Of a stretch of 37,195 bases of DNA, positions 3,120-35,862 are shown piece by piece. A program made the translations under genes and the position numbers. Numbering within the stretch: the first letter of the stretch is position 1; each line of letters begins with the position of its first letter. Source of the stretch: an uncultured Alphaproteobacteria bacterium (GTDB taxonomy: Bacteria; Pseudomonadota; Alphaproteobacteria; Sphingomonadales; SMXR01); assembly GCA_937126915.1 (NCBI GenBank), contig CAKZLM010000062.1, positions 1-37,195 on the forward strand, given 5' to 3'. Under the pieces are notes generated by a model. The model was not told where the DNA came from. It was given only the letters and a program-made list of their open reading frames with translations, and made no database searches.

Positions 3120-4052
3120 ATGCTTAAATTAGTGCCATTATTTTTTATCATTGCCATTGGTTTAGGGCTTTCAGGTTGGATGGGCAATCCTCAAAACAAG
3201 GATATGGATGCCCTCAAACTACAAGCCATTGAAACCTTAGATAAACTTCACAAAGCCGAAGAAGCTGGCGACCTTGACGGTATTTTAGCGGTTTACAGCC
3301 CCAATGCATGGTTTTTAGGCACCGACAAAAGTGAAGCTTGGTCGATTAAAAACCTACCCGATGACTTAAAGAAAGCATTTGAAGCTGGTTGGGCCTTTGA
3401 CCTTAAATCGCGCGAGGTTGGCGTGTCTGATCATGGCACAACTGCATGGTTCCGCGAAGAGGTATGGTTTGCGCCAACAGGTTACACCCTTCGCCCGACA
3501 GGCACCATGACCCGTATCAATGGCGAGTGGCGCATCATGCAATTGCATATGGGCACCCCCGTTCCAAATGATGTTCACAGCCCCTTTACCCAAATGACAC
3601 AGGCCTATGATAATGGCGCAGAGGCTGAAAAAACCGCCATTGCTGGCGTTTTGGATAGCTTTCATTTAGCTGCCGCCAAGGCCGATGGCGAAACCTATTT
3701 TGGGCACTTTACTTCGGGCGGTGTGTTTGTAGGAACCGACGTTAAAGAACGTTGGACCGTGGATGAATTTAAAGCCTATGCCGAACCTTATTTTTCCAAA
3801 GGCCAAGGATGGGTTTATAGTGCTCGCACCCGCTGGATTGAGTTAACCCCTGGCATGAACACAGCGTGGTTTTTAGAGGTGTTGGATAGCAAAACATATG
3901 GCACAGCCCGGGGTGCAGGCACCATGGTGCGCGAGGGCGGCGTTTGGAAGGTGGCGCAATATGCCCTTACCTATCCCATGCCCAACGAATTTGCCGTAGA
4001 ATTTACCGATAAAATTAAGGCGTTTGAAAAACAACAAGCTGGTCAGGAGTAA
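3120..4052 (+). CDS. Tandem SnoaL/NTF2-like domain protein, exported or membrane-anchored
   Basis: 310 residues. An N-terminal hydrophobic segment (3-20) without a lipobox cysteine suggests a signal peptide or anchor. Two copies of the same roughly 120-residue unit follow, at about 30-150 and 165-300. Each opens with a helix (LDKLHKAEEAGD; VLDSFHLAAAKADG), then a Y/F-x-gly-x-x-V/W-F-x-GTD element, a conserved aromatic-rich strand ending in TAWF, and a closing strand around GTM followed by W-R/K. This matches the SnoaL-like/NTF2 cone fold, and the repetition indicates internal duplication. Substrate is unknown. A strong RBS (GGGGGGA) precedes the ATG, and the peptidase gene starts 6 bases after its stop, so the two are translationally linked. 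Confidence 0.75.
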   Translation: MLKLVPLFFIIAIGLGLSGWMGNPQNKDMDALKLQAIETLDKLHKAEEAGDLDGILAVYSPNAWFLGTDKSEAWSIKNLPDDLKKAFEAGWAFDLKSREVGVSDHGTTAWFREEVWFAPTGYTLRPTGTMTRINGEWRIMQLHMGTPVPNDVHSPFTQMTQAYDNGAEAEKTAIAGVLDSFHLAAAKADGETYFGHFTSGGVFVGTDVKERWTVDEFKAYAEPYFSKGQGWVYSARTRWIELTPGMNTAWFLEVLDSKTYGTARGAGTMVREGGVWKVAQYALTYPMPNEFAVEFTDKIKAFEKQQAGQE

Positions 4053-4058
4053 AAAGAC

Positions 4059-5261
4059 ATGATTGGTCATTCTAAAATCGACACCGAATTGGAGCGCCTA
4101 ACGTCACTGACTTTTGCCCAAGAAAGCACACCCATTTCAAAAGCTGAATATGCGGCCCGCATTGAAAAAGCCCAAGGCTTAATGCAGGAACAAGGCATTG
4201 ATGCTTTATACCTTAACGCAGGAACCAATCTTTATTATTTCACTGGCACTCGCTGGTATGCAAGTGAGCGTATGGTGGGCGCCCTTCTACCTGCTAATGG
4301 TTCGTTAGTTTACATCAGCCCCTTCTTTGAAATATCGACCCTAAAACAATTCATGGCTATCGAGGGTGACGTTAAAGGTTGGCAAGAACATGAGTGCCCT
4401 TATCAATTAACCGCTGACATTTTAAGGGGGCTTGGCATTCAAAAAGGCACCATTGCCATTGATGAATCCAGTTCGTTTTTTATCTCCAACGGCATTCGCA
4501 ATGCTGCCCCTGATCACACTTATGTCGATGGGAAGTCTATTACCGCCACTTGTCGCATGATAAAAAGCGACCATGAAATTGCTTTAATGCAGGCCGCAAA
4601 AAACATCACCCTTGAGGTGCAAAAATCTGCCGCGGCGATCTTACATGAGGGCATCACCACCACCGAAGTGGCCAGCTTCATCAACCAAGCCCATATTGCG
4701 GCAGGGGCGCCGAAGGGTAATTATTTTGTCATTGTGCTTTTTGGTGAGGCCACCGCCTACCCCCACGGTGTGAAAGACCCTCAAACCCTTAAAAAAAACG
4801 ATATGGTTCTTATTGATACCGGCTGTCAGGTTCATGATTATATTTCAGATATCACACGATCTTATGTTTATGGTACACCAAGTGATAAACAGCGCAGTGT
4901 TTGGAACCATGAAAAACAGGCACAAAAAATTGCCTTTAACGCAGCCCAACTTGATACCCCCTGCGGCATAGTTGATGTGGCAGCGCGTGACTATTTAGCC
5001 AGTGTCGGTTATGGCCCTGATTATCAAGTTCCGGGCCTGCCCCATCGCACTGGTCATGGTATAGGCTTAGACATTCATGAATGGCCTTATTTAGTGCGAT
5101 CAGACCAAACACCGCTAAAAAAGGGCATGTGTTTTTCCAACGAACCGATGCTGTGTTTGTATGGCGAATTTGGTGTCCGCCTTGAAGACCATTTTTATAT
5201 GACCGACCAAGGCCCTAAATGGTTTACCCAGCCATCACCCTCTATTGATCAACCCTTTTAA
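4059..5261 (+). CDS. M24 family metallopeptidase (Xaa-Pro aminopeptidase/dipeptidase type)
   Basis: 400-residue pita-bread-fold enzyme. The creatinase N-terminal domain covers about 25-150 and the M24 catalytic domain about 170-395. The five metal ligands of the family are all present: Asp253 (DTG), Asp264 (SDITR), His333 (GHGIG), Glu362 (NEPM) and Glu376 (RLED). It should therefore bind two metal ions and cleave N-terminal Xaa-Pro bonds, although some M24 proteins act on creatine or other substrates. There is no signal peptide, so it is cytoplasmic. It sits in an operon with the tandem SnoaL protein, 6 bases downstream. The exact substrate cannot be read from sequence. Confidence 0.9.
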   Translation: MIGHSKIDTELERLTSLTFAQESTPISKAEYAARIEKAQGLMQEQGIDALYLNAGTNLYYFTGTRWYASERMVGALLPANGSLVYISPFFEISTLKQFMAIEGDVKGWQEHECPYQLTADILRGLGIQKGTIAIDESSSFFISNGIRNAAPDHTYVDGKSITATCRMIKSDHEIALMQAAKNITLEVQKSAAAILHEGITTTEVASFINQAHIAAGAPKGNYFVIVLFGEATAYPHGVKDPQTLKKNDMVLIDTGCQVHDYISDITRSYVYGTPSDKQRSVWNHEKQAQKIAFNAAQLDTPCGIVDVAARDYLASVGYGPDYQVPGLPHRTGHGIGLDIHEWPYLVRSDQTPLKKGMCFSNEPMLCLYGEFGVRLEDHFYMTDQGPKWFTQPSPSIDQPF

Positions 5262-30804: not shown

Positions 30805-31269
30805 CTAGTAATCAACAGGAACGCCAGGTTCTTTCTTAGAATTACGAATGGTCAGTGATGTTTTAACACTGTTCACATGCGGGGCAGAAACCAACTCTTT
30901 GGTTAAGAAGGTTTGGAACTCAGCCAAATCATGAGCGACAATTTTTAAGATAAAATCAATCTCACCATTCAGCATGTAACATTCGCGCACCAAAGGCCAT
31001 TCGCTGGTTTTTTCTTCAAATTTTTGCAAGTCAGCTTCATTTTGGCTATCCAAACCAACCATTGCAAAAACCGTGATGCCAAAACCAAGGGCATCATTGT
31101 TTAAATCGGCATGATAACCACGAATGTAACCTTCTTCTTCAAGGGCACGAACACGACGCAGGCAAGGCGGCGCTGTAATCCCCACACGTTGGGCTAATTC
31201 AACATTGGTCATACGACCTTCATTTTGTAAATTTTGCAAAATTTTAATATCAACTGCATCAAGCTTCAC
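30805..31269 (-). CDS. Lrp/AsnC family transcriptional regulator
   Basis: 154 residues from a GTG at 31269, preceded by AAGAAGG at nine bases; a stop in the same frame lies immediately upstream, so the start is well fixed. The N-terminal HTH (LDAVDIKILQNLQNEGRMTNVELAQRVGITAPPCLRRVRALEEEGYI) and the RAM ligand-binding/oligomerisation domain (GFGITVFAMVGL, VRECYMLNGEIDFILKIVAHDL) fill the protein. It is expected to act as a dimer of dimers, sensing an amino acid. The target is unknown; it is divergent from the split gene starting at 31548. Local Lrp members near no amino acid genes are hard to assign further. Confidence 0.93.
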   Translation of the reverse strand: MKLDAVDIKILQNLQNEGRMTNVELAQRVGITAPPCLRRVRALEEEGYIRGYHADLNNDALGFGITVFAMVGLDSQNEADLQKFEEKTSEWPLVRECYMLNGEIDFILKIVAHDLAEFQTFLTKELVSAPHVNSVKTSLTIRNSKKEPGVPVDY

Positions 31270-31547: not shown

Positions 31548-32390
31548 ATGACAAAAGCAGAAACTCATCTTGCGGAATTGCTGAAAAAAGTCAGCAATCA
31601 TTCCGATGGGTCTACTGGCTCGAATGATGCACAGAATGACAGCCAAAATGATCAAGAAAAACTGTTTCTAGCGTTGGCCAAAATGCTCACGAAGAATACT
31701 GCATCAAACGCCCCTAAGCAACCAGATCATGCGGGACCACCTGAAACAGGAAACAGTAAAATTTTATCAGATGTCATGGACAGTTTTCAGCAAGAAATTG
31801 AGGTTTCTGTGCGCCATGAAATGGCCAAGCAATTGGCCGCTGAAAAAAACCCACCCATTGATCTAGCCTTAAAACTTGCCCTCGATCAGGATTTAAATGT
31901 GGCGCGGCCTATTTTGGAAACGGTTAACTTCTCAGATGCTGAATTAATTCACATTATTGAGCACAGTGCCCACGATCATCATATGATCATCGCCAAACGC
32001 GGTGATCTTACCAAGCCTGTTTGGAAAGCATTAACTAGACAGCGCATGCAGGCTGAGCGGCATCGCTTTCAAAAAGCCACCCCACAAAACAATACGCCAA
32101 ATCTAAAAAGTGCTGATATTGAAAAAATTTCTCATCATCGCCCCTCCATAACCCCTGACAGCCAAGAAGGGCTTGAAGACAGCCAGTCTCACACCTCTTC
32201 AGGGCATGTTATGGAAAAACTGGATAATAACAGTCCATCATTGCCCAGTTTTTTACTGGACGCTACGCCGCTAGACCCTGTCTTTGAAAAAAAAAACACG
32301 ACCTGCAAAGCCAACAAAACCAGCAGCATAAAGGCCCCCATTATCATCAGGGTAAAACCGTTTTTCCACCACCCAATGATGTTCCCTTAG
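31548..32390 (+). CDS. N-terminal part of a frameshift-split DUF2336-domain protein
   Basis: 280 codons from the ATG at 31548, which has AGGGG upstream. A charged low-complexity N-terminus (residues 1-75) leads to a DUF2336-like helical repeat region (about 80-180): EIEVSVRHEMAKQLAAEKNPPIDLALKLALDQDLNVARPILETVNFSDAELIHIIEHSAHDHH, then AKRGDLTKPVWKAL. After about residue 247, at a run of ten A (32287-32296), this frame turns into an implausible, stop-terminated tail (NTTCKANKTSS... to TAG/stop at 32390). The true continuation reads on in the +1-added-base frame and is listed separately. DUF2336 is widespread in alphaproteobacteria, often with sensor domains; its function is unknown. Confidence 0.7.
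   Translation: MTKAETHLAELLKKVSNHSDGSTGSNDAQNDSQNDQEKLFLALAKMLTKNTASNAPKQPDHAGPPETGNSKILSDVMDSFQQEIEVSVRHEMAKQLAAEKNPPIDLALKLALDQDLNVARPILETVNFSDAELIHIIEHSAHDHHMIIAKRGDLTKPVWKALTRQRMQAERHRFQKATPQNNTPNLKSADIEKISHHRPSITPDSQEGLEDSQSHTSSGHVMEKLDNNSPSLPSFLLDATPLDPVFEKKNTTCKANKTSSIKAPIIIRVKPFFHHPMMFP
32287..32296 (+). repeat. A10 homopolymer at the frame junction
   Basis: Ten consecutive A follow G at 32286. Reading GAA-AAA-AAA-AAC gives the upstream frame. With one more A it would read GAA-AAA-AAA-AAA-CAC and continue in the downstream frame, which is open only from 32288 because TGA at 32285-32287 closes it. It is thus a natural slippage site. Confidence 0.95.
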
Positions 32391-32413
32391 AAGATAAGGA
32401 TGACACCGACGAT

Positions 32414-34033
32414 TTGGTTGAGGCAATTTTACATCAAACCCCGGATCCAGAATTAACCGGCTTTGAAAGTCAACCTTCGTCTACGGCGAACAGCGCAAGA
32501 TTTGGCAGTAAATATCAAGCCTTAAAAAATCGCAATCCATTGCAAACAGATGACAGCCAGCGCGATTTTGATGCGATTAAAAAAATTGCCGCACAAATGG
32601 CCCTGAAAGCAGGCACAGAACCAACTCCTAATCATGATGAAATCAATTGGCAGGATGAGGAAGATGCCCGCCAGTCAGCGGTTGCTGAAAAGGCCCTTCA
32701 TCATGTGCGGGAGATCATCCAACGCGATGATGCTGATGACATTGATGATGTAGATGTTTTAGCCCATATGGCAGAGCAAAGCACAACAAAACACTATGAC
32801 TTTGACGATAGCCTTAGTGACGTTATCGAAGACACCCCTTCATATCTATCACACCAAATGGAAAAACCGCGCCAACCCGGTAATAACCACTTTGACTTTG
32901 ACGATGGCGCGGTTGCTGAGGGGGGGTGGCAGTTCAGAACGGACCGCGCGGGTCATTTAGATGAATTAGACCAAGCAGGCAGTGCCTATTTTGGCAAGGA
33001 AGCCGATGATCTTAAAGAAAAAGGCTTCTTCCAGAAACTGGCCAGCAATGAGACCGGTGCCCTAAATCAAACGGTCAGTCATCATCAACCCATCCGTGAT
33101 ATGGTTGTGCAAATTGAAGCGCCTGACGGTTCGCCACGACCTTGGAAATTACGCGCTAAGGCCCGCTTTAACCCACTTGACGGGAGATTTATTGGCTATG
33201 AGGGCACCGCCATGCCCGTTGACCCATCTGAGGTGGCAAGTGAATTAGAAAGCTCCTTTGCCCCCCCACAAGGGCAGTATCAATCGAACGGCCTTGGCGC
33301 AGTCAAGCCATCGCACTCTACAAGCAAGGCCTTGCTACAAAAGCTATTTTTGAAACATTTGTCAGAAACAACGGCCAATGCAACGCAACACCTGACAGGC
33401 CTAGCCACCAGTCTTTTAGAAGAAGCGCAACTAAGCCAAAACCGCAGCATAATGCAACAGGCCCTAGAGATTTTAGAGCAAAGCCGCACCGTGCATCATC
33501 AATTAGAAAATGTTGGCGTTTTAGAAAATACCATCGCCTCAGACCTAGCCCAAAAACGTGGTCGCAAATATGCTATCAAACGGGTGATGGAAGAGGTGTT
33601 GGATGAAGATGCTATCATCGAAGGTGAAGCAGCCCGATATTATATCGACCCCAGCGCAAATGCCTTAGAAACAAATTTTGATTCGGCCCTTCTTCGTAAA
33701 ATCATCAGCCGCATGGTTTTAGTGGCTCGAAAATTTGGTAGCCGTGAAAGCGACCGCCTCATTAAAATCACCGCTAGCATCAGCGGGCATTTAATTATCC
33801 GCATTCCATTGGGCACGGTTGATCAATTATCTTGGTCAATTAATGACGTTTTATTTGACCCCGTTGCAGCCATGAAAGACGGATTAAAACGCCATGATAG
33901 CAATAACTTATCACGCATGGCAGCGTTTAGCTTATCAGCCATGAAACCTGCCGCGCAAAAAGCCGGCGCTGATATTAAAATCATCCGCACCAGTGGTAAC
34001 ATGCGTGAATTGATCTTAGACATTCAGTCTTAA
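32414..34033 (+). CDS. C-terminal part of the same split gene: PAS-like plus degenerate histidine-kinase-like region
   Basis: The frame is open from 32288; 32414 (TTG) is only the first possible start and lacks an RBS. Joined to the N-terminal part with one extra A, the product would be about 828 residues from ATG 31548. The region 32288-33080 is acidic and low-complexity. A PAS-like strand pair follows (GSPRPWKLRAKARFNPLDGRFIGYEG). The last 230 residues have the layout of HisKA plus ATPase domains, but the phospho-His position reads LSETTANATQ instead of SHELRTPL, and the N-box and DxGxG glycine loop are not recognisable (IPLGTVDQ). It looks like a pseudokinase or scaffold. Function is unknown. 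Confidence 0.65.
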   Translation: MVEAILHQTPDPELTGFESQPSSTANSARFGSKYQALKNRNPLQTDDSQRDFDAIKKIAAQMALKAGTEPTPNHDEINWQDEEDARQSAVAEKALHHVREIIQRDDADDIDDVDVLAHMAEQSTTKHYDFDDSLSDVIEDTPSYLSHQMEKPRQPGNNHFDFDDGAVAEGGWQFRTDRAGHLDELDQAGSAYFGKEADDLKEKGFFQKLASNETGALNQTVSHHQPIRDMVVQIEAPDGSPRPWKLRAKARFNPLDGRFIGYEGTAMPVDPSEVASELESSFAPPQGQYQSNGLGAVKPSHSTSKALLQKLFLKHLSETTANATQHLTGLATSLLEEAQLSQNRSIMQQALEILEQSRTVHHQLENVGVLENTIASDLAQKRGRKYAIKRVMEEVLDEDAIIEGEAARYYIDPSANALETNFDSALLRKIISRMVLVARKFGSRESDRLIKITASISGHLIIRIPLGTVDQLSWSINDVLFDPVAAMKDGLKRHDSNNLSRMAAFSLSAMKPAAQKAGADIKIIRTSGNMRELILDIQS

Positions 34034-34164
34034 CTTTTGCCCCTGTCCAACAGCCAAATATTACACTTGCAGAATTCGCTCACTGCTTTACAAATCTTTG
34101 TGGTTTGAAAAACTAACCACATAAATAATGATAAAATAACGTATCTGTTTTGAGAGGAAAGAAA

Positions 34165-34815
34165 ATGGAACTGATGGACGATTACGAATACGATTTCGAC
34201 TTTGACAATGTGCCCAGCGTTTTGGTTGGACAGCAAGCGCCAGATTTTGTTGCTGCTGCTGTTATGCCTGATGATACCATTAATGAAGAGTTTTGCCTTT
34301 CTGAGCATATCGAAGGTAAATATGCCCTTCTTTTCTTCTACCCGTTAGATTTCACATTTGTTTGCCCATCAGAAATTATTGCCTTCAACAACCGTATTGC
34401 TAAGTTTAAAGAACTGGGCTGTGAAGTGATCGGTATTTCTGTTGATAGCCAATTTAGCCACCTAGCATGGAAAAACACCCCACGTGAAAAAGGCGGCTTG
34501 GGTGGTCTTGACTTCCCATTGGTTGCTGATTTGACCAAAGAAATTGGCTATAACTATGGCGTTCTTCGTGAAGATGGCGTGACCTTCCGTGGCAGCTTCT
34601 TGATTGACACCAAAGGTGAGGTTCGCCACCAAGTGGTTAACGACCTTCCATTAGGCCGTAATGTTGACGAAGCCATCCGCATGGTTGAAGCGCTTCAATT
34701 CCACGAAGAGCATGGTGAAGTTTGCCCTGCTGGCTGGAACAAAGGTGACGAGGGCATGACTGCCGATGGCGACGGTGTTGCTAGTTACTTAGCGAAAAAC
34801 TCTGACAATCTATAA
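34165..34815 (+). CDS. Typical 2-Cys peroxiredoxin (AhpC/Prx family)
   Basis: 216 residues from the ATG at 34165, with GAGAGGAAAG just upstream; a TTG five codons earlier is less likely. The peroxidatic Cys67 is in LDFTFVCPSE, with the Thr and Arg environment around it, and the resolving Cys187 is in GEVCPAGW. The GGLGGLDFPLVADLTKEI loop is the GGLG motif linked to over-oxidation sensitivity in the Prx1/AhpC group. Residues 1-20 are an acidic extension rich in Asp and Tyr not required by the fold. The enzyme reduces hydroperoxides using thioredoxin, and trxB is 99 bases downstream. OxyR control is not visible here. Confidence 0.95.
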   Translation: MELMDDYEYDFDFDNVPSVLVGQQAPDFVAAAVMPDDTINEEFCLSEHIEGKYALLFFYPLDFTFVCPSEIIAFNNRIAKFKELGCEVIGISVDSQFSHLAWKNTPREKGGLGGLDFPLVADLTKEIGYNYGVLREDGVTFRGSFLIDTKGEVRHQVVNDLPLGRNVDEAIRMVEALQFHEEHGEVCPAGWNKGDEGMTADGDGVASYLAKNSDNL

Positions 34816-34914: not shown

Positions 34915-35862
34915 ATGAGTGAGCCAATTCACAGTAAAGTATTAATTATTGGATCAGGCCCTGCAGGATATACCGCAGCGGTTTATGCTGCGCGTGCCTC
35001 ATTAGAGCCAATTATTGTGCAAGGCATGCAACCCGGTGGTCAGTTAACCATCACCACCGATGTTGAGAATTATCCGGGCTTTGCCGAAGCTATTCAAGGC
35101 CCATGGTTGATGGAACAAATGATGGAACAAGCCAAAAATGTTGGCACCCAAATCATTTCTGATTACATCAAGGAAGTAGACTTTGAAACCCGCCCGTTTA
35201 AAGCCATTGGCGACAGCGGTCAGGTTTATACCGGCGACACAGTTATTATAGCTACTGGCGCACAGGCTAAATGGTTGGGCTTGGAAACCGAAATGACCTA
35301 CCAAGGCTTTGGTGTTTCTGCTTGTGCCACTTGTGATGGTTTCTTTTACCGCGGCAAGGAGGTTGCTGTGGTTGGTGGTGGTAACACCGCCGTTGAAGAA
35401 GCGTTGTTCCTAACCAACTTTGCGTCAAAAGTGACCCTTATCCACCGTCGTGACGAATTGCGTTCAGAAAAAATCTTGCAAGAACGCTTGTTCAAAAATG
35501 AAAAAGTGGAAATTTTGTGGGATACTGAATTGGATGAAATCTTAGGCGAGCAAGACCCACTTGGTGTTACTGGCCTGCGCTTAAAATCAACCAAAACAGG
35601 CGACCTATCAGAAATCAACGTAGATGGTGTGTTCATTGCCATTGGCCACAAACCTTCAACCGAGGTGTTCCGTGGCAAGGTGGATATGGATGAAAGCGGA
35701 TATATCAAAAAAGCCCCTGACAGTACAGCCACCAACATCCCCGGTGTTTATGCCGCGGGGGACGTTTCTGACAAAATTTATCGCCAAGCAGTAACCGCTG
35801 CGGGTATGGGTTGTATGGCAGCTCTAGAGGCAGAAAAGTTTATTGCTGAACACGAAGGTTAA
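34915..35862 (+). CDS. trxB: Thioredoxin-disulfide reductase
   Basis: 315 residues. FAD/NADPH enzyme that reduces thioredoxin. It has the N-terminal FAD motif IIGSGPAGYTAAVYAARA, the redox-active pair Cys137-Ala-Thr-Cys140, the NADPH motif VVGGGNTAVEEALFL, and the C-terminal GVYAAGDVSDKIYRQAVTAAGMG flavin contact. An RBS (GGAG) lies before the ATG. The peroxiredoxin directly upstream is a likely user of the thioredoxin it maintains. A strong terminator follows at 35887. Confidence 0.98.
   Translation: MSEPIHSKVLIIGSGPAGYTAAVYAARASLEPIIVQGMQPGGQLTITTDVENYPGFAEAIQGPWLMEQMMEQAKNVGTQIISDYIKEVDFETRPFKAIGDSGQVYTGDTVIIATGAQAKWLGLETEMTYQGFGVSACATCDGFFYRGKEVAVVGGGNTAVEEALFLTNFASKVTLIHRRDELRSEKILQERLFKNEKVEILWDTELDEILGEQDPLGVTGLRLKSTKTGDLSEINVDGVFIAIGHKPSTEVFRGKVDMDESGYIKKAPDSTATNIPGVYAAGDVSDKIYRQAVTAAGMGCMAALEAEKFIAEHEG

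Follow-up and report, generated by a model that had tools for sequence, protein, structure and literature searches.

A single gene that would encode an 828-residue protein with PAS-like and degenerate histidine-kinase-like regions is split into two reading frames at a run of ten A's in the window, i.e. the whole 37,195-nucleotide stretch of DNA that was analysed. We give about even chances to the reading that this is a lineage-specific, one-base break of a fused ancestral gene, made leaky by slippage of the RNA polymerase on the tract.

The run comprises exactly ten A's in the context GTCTTTG-A10-CACGACC (Table 1). The upstream frame extends from the ATG at 31548 to an in-frame TAG (32388–32390) and yields a product of 280 residues. 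The downstream frame is closed on its 5' side by a TGA at 32285–32287, and from 32288 onwards it is open for 581 codons, up to the TAA at 34031–34033. Our recount agreed with the initial annotation that an eleventh A joins both frames into a continuous one of 828 residues, from 31548 to 34033. A fourth-order, three-periodic codon model, for which 427 long ORFs of this genome served as the training set, detected coding signal in frame 0 until the A10 and in frame 2 beyond it. The model places the switch best at 32300, and its 2-log-unit interval (32288–32305) coincides with the tract. Allowing the switch gives a log-likelihood of 135.6 vs −264 and −78 for the single frames, a margin of more than 200 log units. 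Both the coordinates and the model thus bear out the earlier proposal that two coding frames are separated at the A10. The last 34 codons of the 280-residue frame, located 3' of the tract, have an out-of-frame composition. Conversely, the coding signal is undiminished across the 581 downstream codons, and no second lesion was found in the gene.

Table 1. Features of the split gene and of its conserved neighbours in the window.
Feature	Position	Strand	Evidence
Lrp/AsnC-family regulator, conserved upstream neighbour	30805..31269	-	tblastn
Upstream reading frame, 280 aa: conserved N-terminal module and variable linker	31548..32390	+	ORF list, Pfam, orthologue alignment, codon model
A10 tract, site of frame change	32287..32296	+	Sequence, genome-wide run count, maximum-likelihood frame switch
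Downstream open frame, 581 codons: acidic linker, PAS-like module, degenerate histidine-kinase-like C terminus	32288..34033	+	ORF list, alignment, hhalign
A_AAA_AAC heptamer, zero frame, possible -1 ribosomal slippery site	32291..32297	+	Sequence
PAS-like module (approximate bounds)	32894..33220	+	Orthologue alignment, PAS_4 match in orthologue L006, hhalign
Pseudokinase-like region, DHp and CA domains (approximate bounds)	33320..34030	+	hhalign (97.5), homologous region in G001 and G004
Thioredoxin reductase (TrxB), conserved downstream neighbour	34915..35862	+	ORF list, tblastn

Searches for orthologues covered 60 related genomes. In 24 of them, the profiles of the upstream and downstream parts both match a single uninterrupted ORF, and the 22 orthologues inspected harbour neither a frame break nor a run longer than 8. 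None of these 22 keeps the tract, and no conserved two-frame state emerged from the comparison. As judged from these sequences, the full-length fused protein is the ancestral form, since all 24 relatives with both modules carry one ORF and no run exceeds 8 in those inspected. Likewise, the two-frame state is peculiar to this lineage or to this assembly, given one unbroken frame in 24 related genomes. The closest orthologues are approximately 19–28% identical overall, too distant to date the break, and an evident orthologue is present in just two other genera of the family. Scanning the genome contigs with the downstream protein retrieved no relative, and with TrxB as bait, one orthologue, from Iodidimonas muriae, was found among 80 named loci. 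The flanks of the tract, with its length varied, matched no viral contig. The orthologues often adjoin the same Lrp-family regulator and/or TrxB, as detected by tblastn. In the window, a peroxiredoxin-like gene (34150–34815) intervenes between the split gene and TrxB, the latter being directly adjacent to the orthologue in G001 and G004.

Regarding the domain composition, the initial annotation had described a DUF2336 protein with PAS-like and kinase-like regions. Both the PAS-like module and the degenerate kinase part were recovered, but the DUF2336 assignment is too strong: the Pfam match (PF10098) is partial, covering residues 118–170 of the upstream product and 54 of the 262 model positions, and its score of 28.7 bits lies below the cutoff of 34.6. 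The DUF2336 match of the orthologues is likewise below the cutoff. Alignment of the orthologues shows that the A10 is located in a long, variable and non-conserved linker between the N-terminal and PAS-like modules. The PAS-like module is kept in all aligned orthologues, and in that of Iodidimonas it scores as PAS_4 in Pfam. The kinase part has no Pfam match and was detected by profile comparison alone, hhalign giving a probability of 97.5 against the PAS-HisKA-HATPase part of an intact histidine kinase. In that alignment, the SHELRTP motif of the intact kinase faces SETTANA, so that the phospho-acceptor His is absent, and neither the NLLTNA nor the DTGVG box is retained. The label 'pseudokinase' is therefore a fair one for this region, given the loss of the acceptor histidine and of the ATP-binding boxes, and on the same grounds the region does not qualify as an active histidine kinase. 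A sequence search of the PDB with a three-member profile yielded one weak PAS-like match (RpfR, E = 0.63).

Degenerate, or pseudo, histidine kinases with PAS domains occur in Alphaproteobacteria, an example being DivL. The product of the split gene has PAS and DHp/CA-like regions in common with the DivL-type proteins, but it lacks the acceptor His as well as the ATP-binding boxes and harbours an N-terminal DUF2336-like module. Based on its domains, the protein might have a sensory or scaffolding role, to which the fixed neighbours Lrp and TrxB provide the sole further hint.

The A10 tract is exceptional in this genome. It is the only run of ten A's or T's in the 2.79-Mb assembly, and no A/T run is longer. 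This uniqueness indicates that the position of the split at the tract is not due to chance. There are 11 A9 or T9 runs in the assembly, two of them within substantial ORFs that both look intact. By resampling synonymous codons in a 561-kb coding sample, approximately 12 sense-strand A runs of at least nine were expected, and none was observed. Coding A runs of this length are thus strongly avoided in this genome, which fits with such tracts being slippery in this bacterium. Many bacteria keep long runs from their genes, starting from a length of approximately nine (Baranov and colleagues, PMC1088944). The GC content of the window is approximately 45%; it contains 16 homopolymers of at least seven residues, including five in the split gene (A7 at 31843, A10 at 32287, A7 at 32579, G7 at 32920 and C7 at 33261).

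In the scenario that we favour, the ancestral single gene would have encoded an N-terminal DUF2336-like module, a linker, a PAS module and a degenerate histidine-kinase domain, and a one-nucleotide length state of the A tract in the linker would put it out of frame. The A10 would be truly present in the DNA, having arisen by replication slippage. The RNA polymerase would slip on it in turn, and part of the mRNA, perhaps 10–30%, would be read as full-length. Some full-length protein would thus probably be restored, and the interruption would be recent and leaky, with no programmed two-product system. The features of rescue by slippage that a DNA sequence can show are present, namely an A/T run of at least nine at the frame change, orthologues that are unbroken and a gene free of further lesions; rescue would also entail a mixed tract length in the mRNA and the production of full-length protein. 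Precedents provide a range of efficiencies, with A/T tracts of approximately 9–11 giving approximately 15–55% shifted product in the genes studied (PMC4256274), and A tracts of symbionts giving 12–50% corrected transcripts (PMC5009743; see also PMC3017870). T runs cause more slippage of the Escherichia coli RNA polymerase than A runs do (PMC6260861), and therefore the rescue could be weak. Polymerase slippage at the A10, as initially put forward, is thus chemically plausible in view of A9–A11 precedents at approximately 12–55%, but the accompanying idea of short and long proteins as built-in products of the gene is not supported.

The main rival, which we regard as less likely, is a miscount in sequencing or assembly, the true tract being in frame and the gene ordinary and intact. 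In its favour, all orthologues are intact, the gene has no other lesion, and the error would fall on the genome's longest A/T run, the kind of site at which any platform is most error-prone. To weigh it, 1.26 Mb (45% of the assembly) was scanned for frame switches without start codons, many apparent switches in the survey being ordinary gene borders with start codons. The A10 was the sole case in which a long coding frame crosses the break, and no other single-lesion frame break was found. In addition, homopolymers of seven or eight A, T or G occur 122 times in the 427 long ORFs without disturbing the frame, a count drawn by selection from long intact ORFs, so that it is the scan that carries the argument. 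The two other coding A9 runs also lie in intact ORFs. With no other single-lesion break in 1.26 Mb and 122 intact runs of seven or eight, the assembly does not appear to be generally prone to homopolymer errors, and one miscount at this particular tract, its longest, is possible and would produce the same picture. Homopolymer error, named in the initial annotation as the simplest competing explanation, is indeed the main rival, but the scan and the run count make it less likely than that generic warning implied.

We find it more doubtful still that the gene is a young pseudogene, with a real break, little or no full-length protein and decay starting. A poorly conserved, sensor-like gene broken between functional neighbours would suit such a fate, and the same genome does harbour a genuine pseudogene, coding for an acyl-CoA synthetase-like protein (C19; L074, reverse strand, approximately 3400–4870), which was detected in a looser first scan. 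This pseudogene carries three lesions: a frameshift near a tandem duplication with an A8, an in-frame TAA and a further frameshift. The split gene has one lesion, with coding signal undiminished over 581 codons after it, and A10 tracts are expected to slip; we therefore count the contrast with the three-lesion gene in favour of a recent, leaky break.

A small probability goes to an A10 that is maintained, as the only one of the genome, by a bacterium that otherwise removes coding A runs of at least nine, and at which slippage would set the ratio of the N-terminal-only form to the full PAS-pseudokinase protein, perhaps with reversible switching at the DNA level. We consider it even less probable that the gene is a regulated two-product system in which both forms are used, by RNA polymerase slippage or by -1 ribosomal frameshifting at the A_AAA_AAC heptamer. 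Both the A10 and the in-frame heptamer are present, and Citrobacter rodentium tssM1, both forms of which are required (PMC4256274), provides a precedent. Nevertheless, the site is not conserved in any of the 22 orthologues inspected, which argues against a programmed system, and the composition of the tail of the short form is that of an out-of-frame sequence. The initial view of a gene designed to make both a short and a long form is not borne out either by the 24 related genes, which are single ORFs, the tract being found in none of the 22 inspected. The downstream fold at the heptamer is not significant (z = 0.19), and no Shine-Dalgarno-like motif was seen by eye 8–14 nt upstream of it. Furthermore, in-frame A_AAA_AAN heptamers (where N is any nucleotide) are common in intact genes of this genome, with 126 in the 427 long ORFs, 25 of which are A_AAA_AAC. 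Programmed ribosomal frameshifting is thus disfavoured by both the lack of structure and the commonness of such heptamers, with the reservation that one proven A_AAA_AAC case has no known stimulator (PMC4066793). A second in-frame A_AAA_AAC is found in the same gene at 31844–31850, approximately 440 nt 5' of the A10, where the frame is unbroken.

Least probable of all is gene fission with separate translation of the downstream ORF, by re-initiation at the TTG at 32414 after the stop codon at 32388–32390: this TTG, approximately 24 nt past the upstream stop, would give a 539-residue protein with the entire PAS and kinase part, but the codon model has the downstream coding signal starting at the A10 rather than at 32414, and no well-placed ribosome-binding site was seen by eye.

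A leaky break of the kind that we favour would resemble several described systems, the feature being of a known kind, a poly-A frame break that is most likely lineage-specific and leaky. It shares with the poly-A-frameshifted genes of Buchnera and Blochmannia (PMC3017870; reviewed in PMC5009743) a long A tract at which a single base breaks the frame of an otherwise intact gene, the relatives being unbroken, and slippage would be expected to restore part of the mRNA. The symbionts, however, have AT-rich genomes in which coding tracts of at least nine number more than 100, whereas here the GC content of the window is approximately 45% and the tract is unique. The A11 of C. rodentium tssM1 (PMC4256274) similarly precedes an early stop, with no ribosomal stimulators. 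However, the long form of tssM1 is restored by slippage with an efficiency of 20–25%, and both forms have been shown and are needed; the A10 may be a recent or an erroneous length state. In the phase-variable tracts of Bacillus subtilis swrA and Listeria inlA (PMC2831843), poly-A length switches the frame at the DNA level. Those tracts are at the extreme 5' end of the genes, in contrast with the A10, which lies approximately 30% into the gene and is known from one assembled length.

If real, the split gene would provide a clean example from nature of a leaky poly-A frameshift, in a bacterium whose genes are otherwise kept free of such tracts. Many of the described rescues concern insertion sequences, secretion systems or the AT-rich symbionts of insects. 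At 31548–34033, automatic annotation would predict two genes where the relatives carry one.

Lastly, the genome survey revealed a similar, non-coding-looking element on two contigs, near position 5769 of L063 and position 6239 of L110. One frame of this element reads LFPDRPFGPPMKHAxGSELLSQF...IAVKTA.AL...PHVTTKGRI. It is probably a dispersed intergenic repeat.
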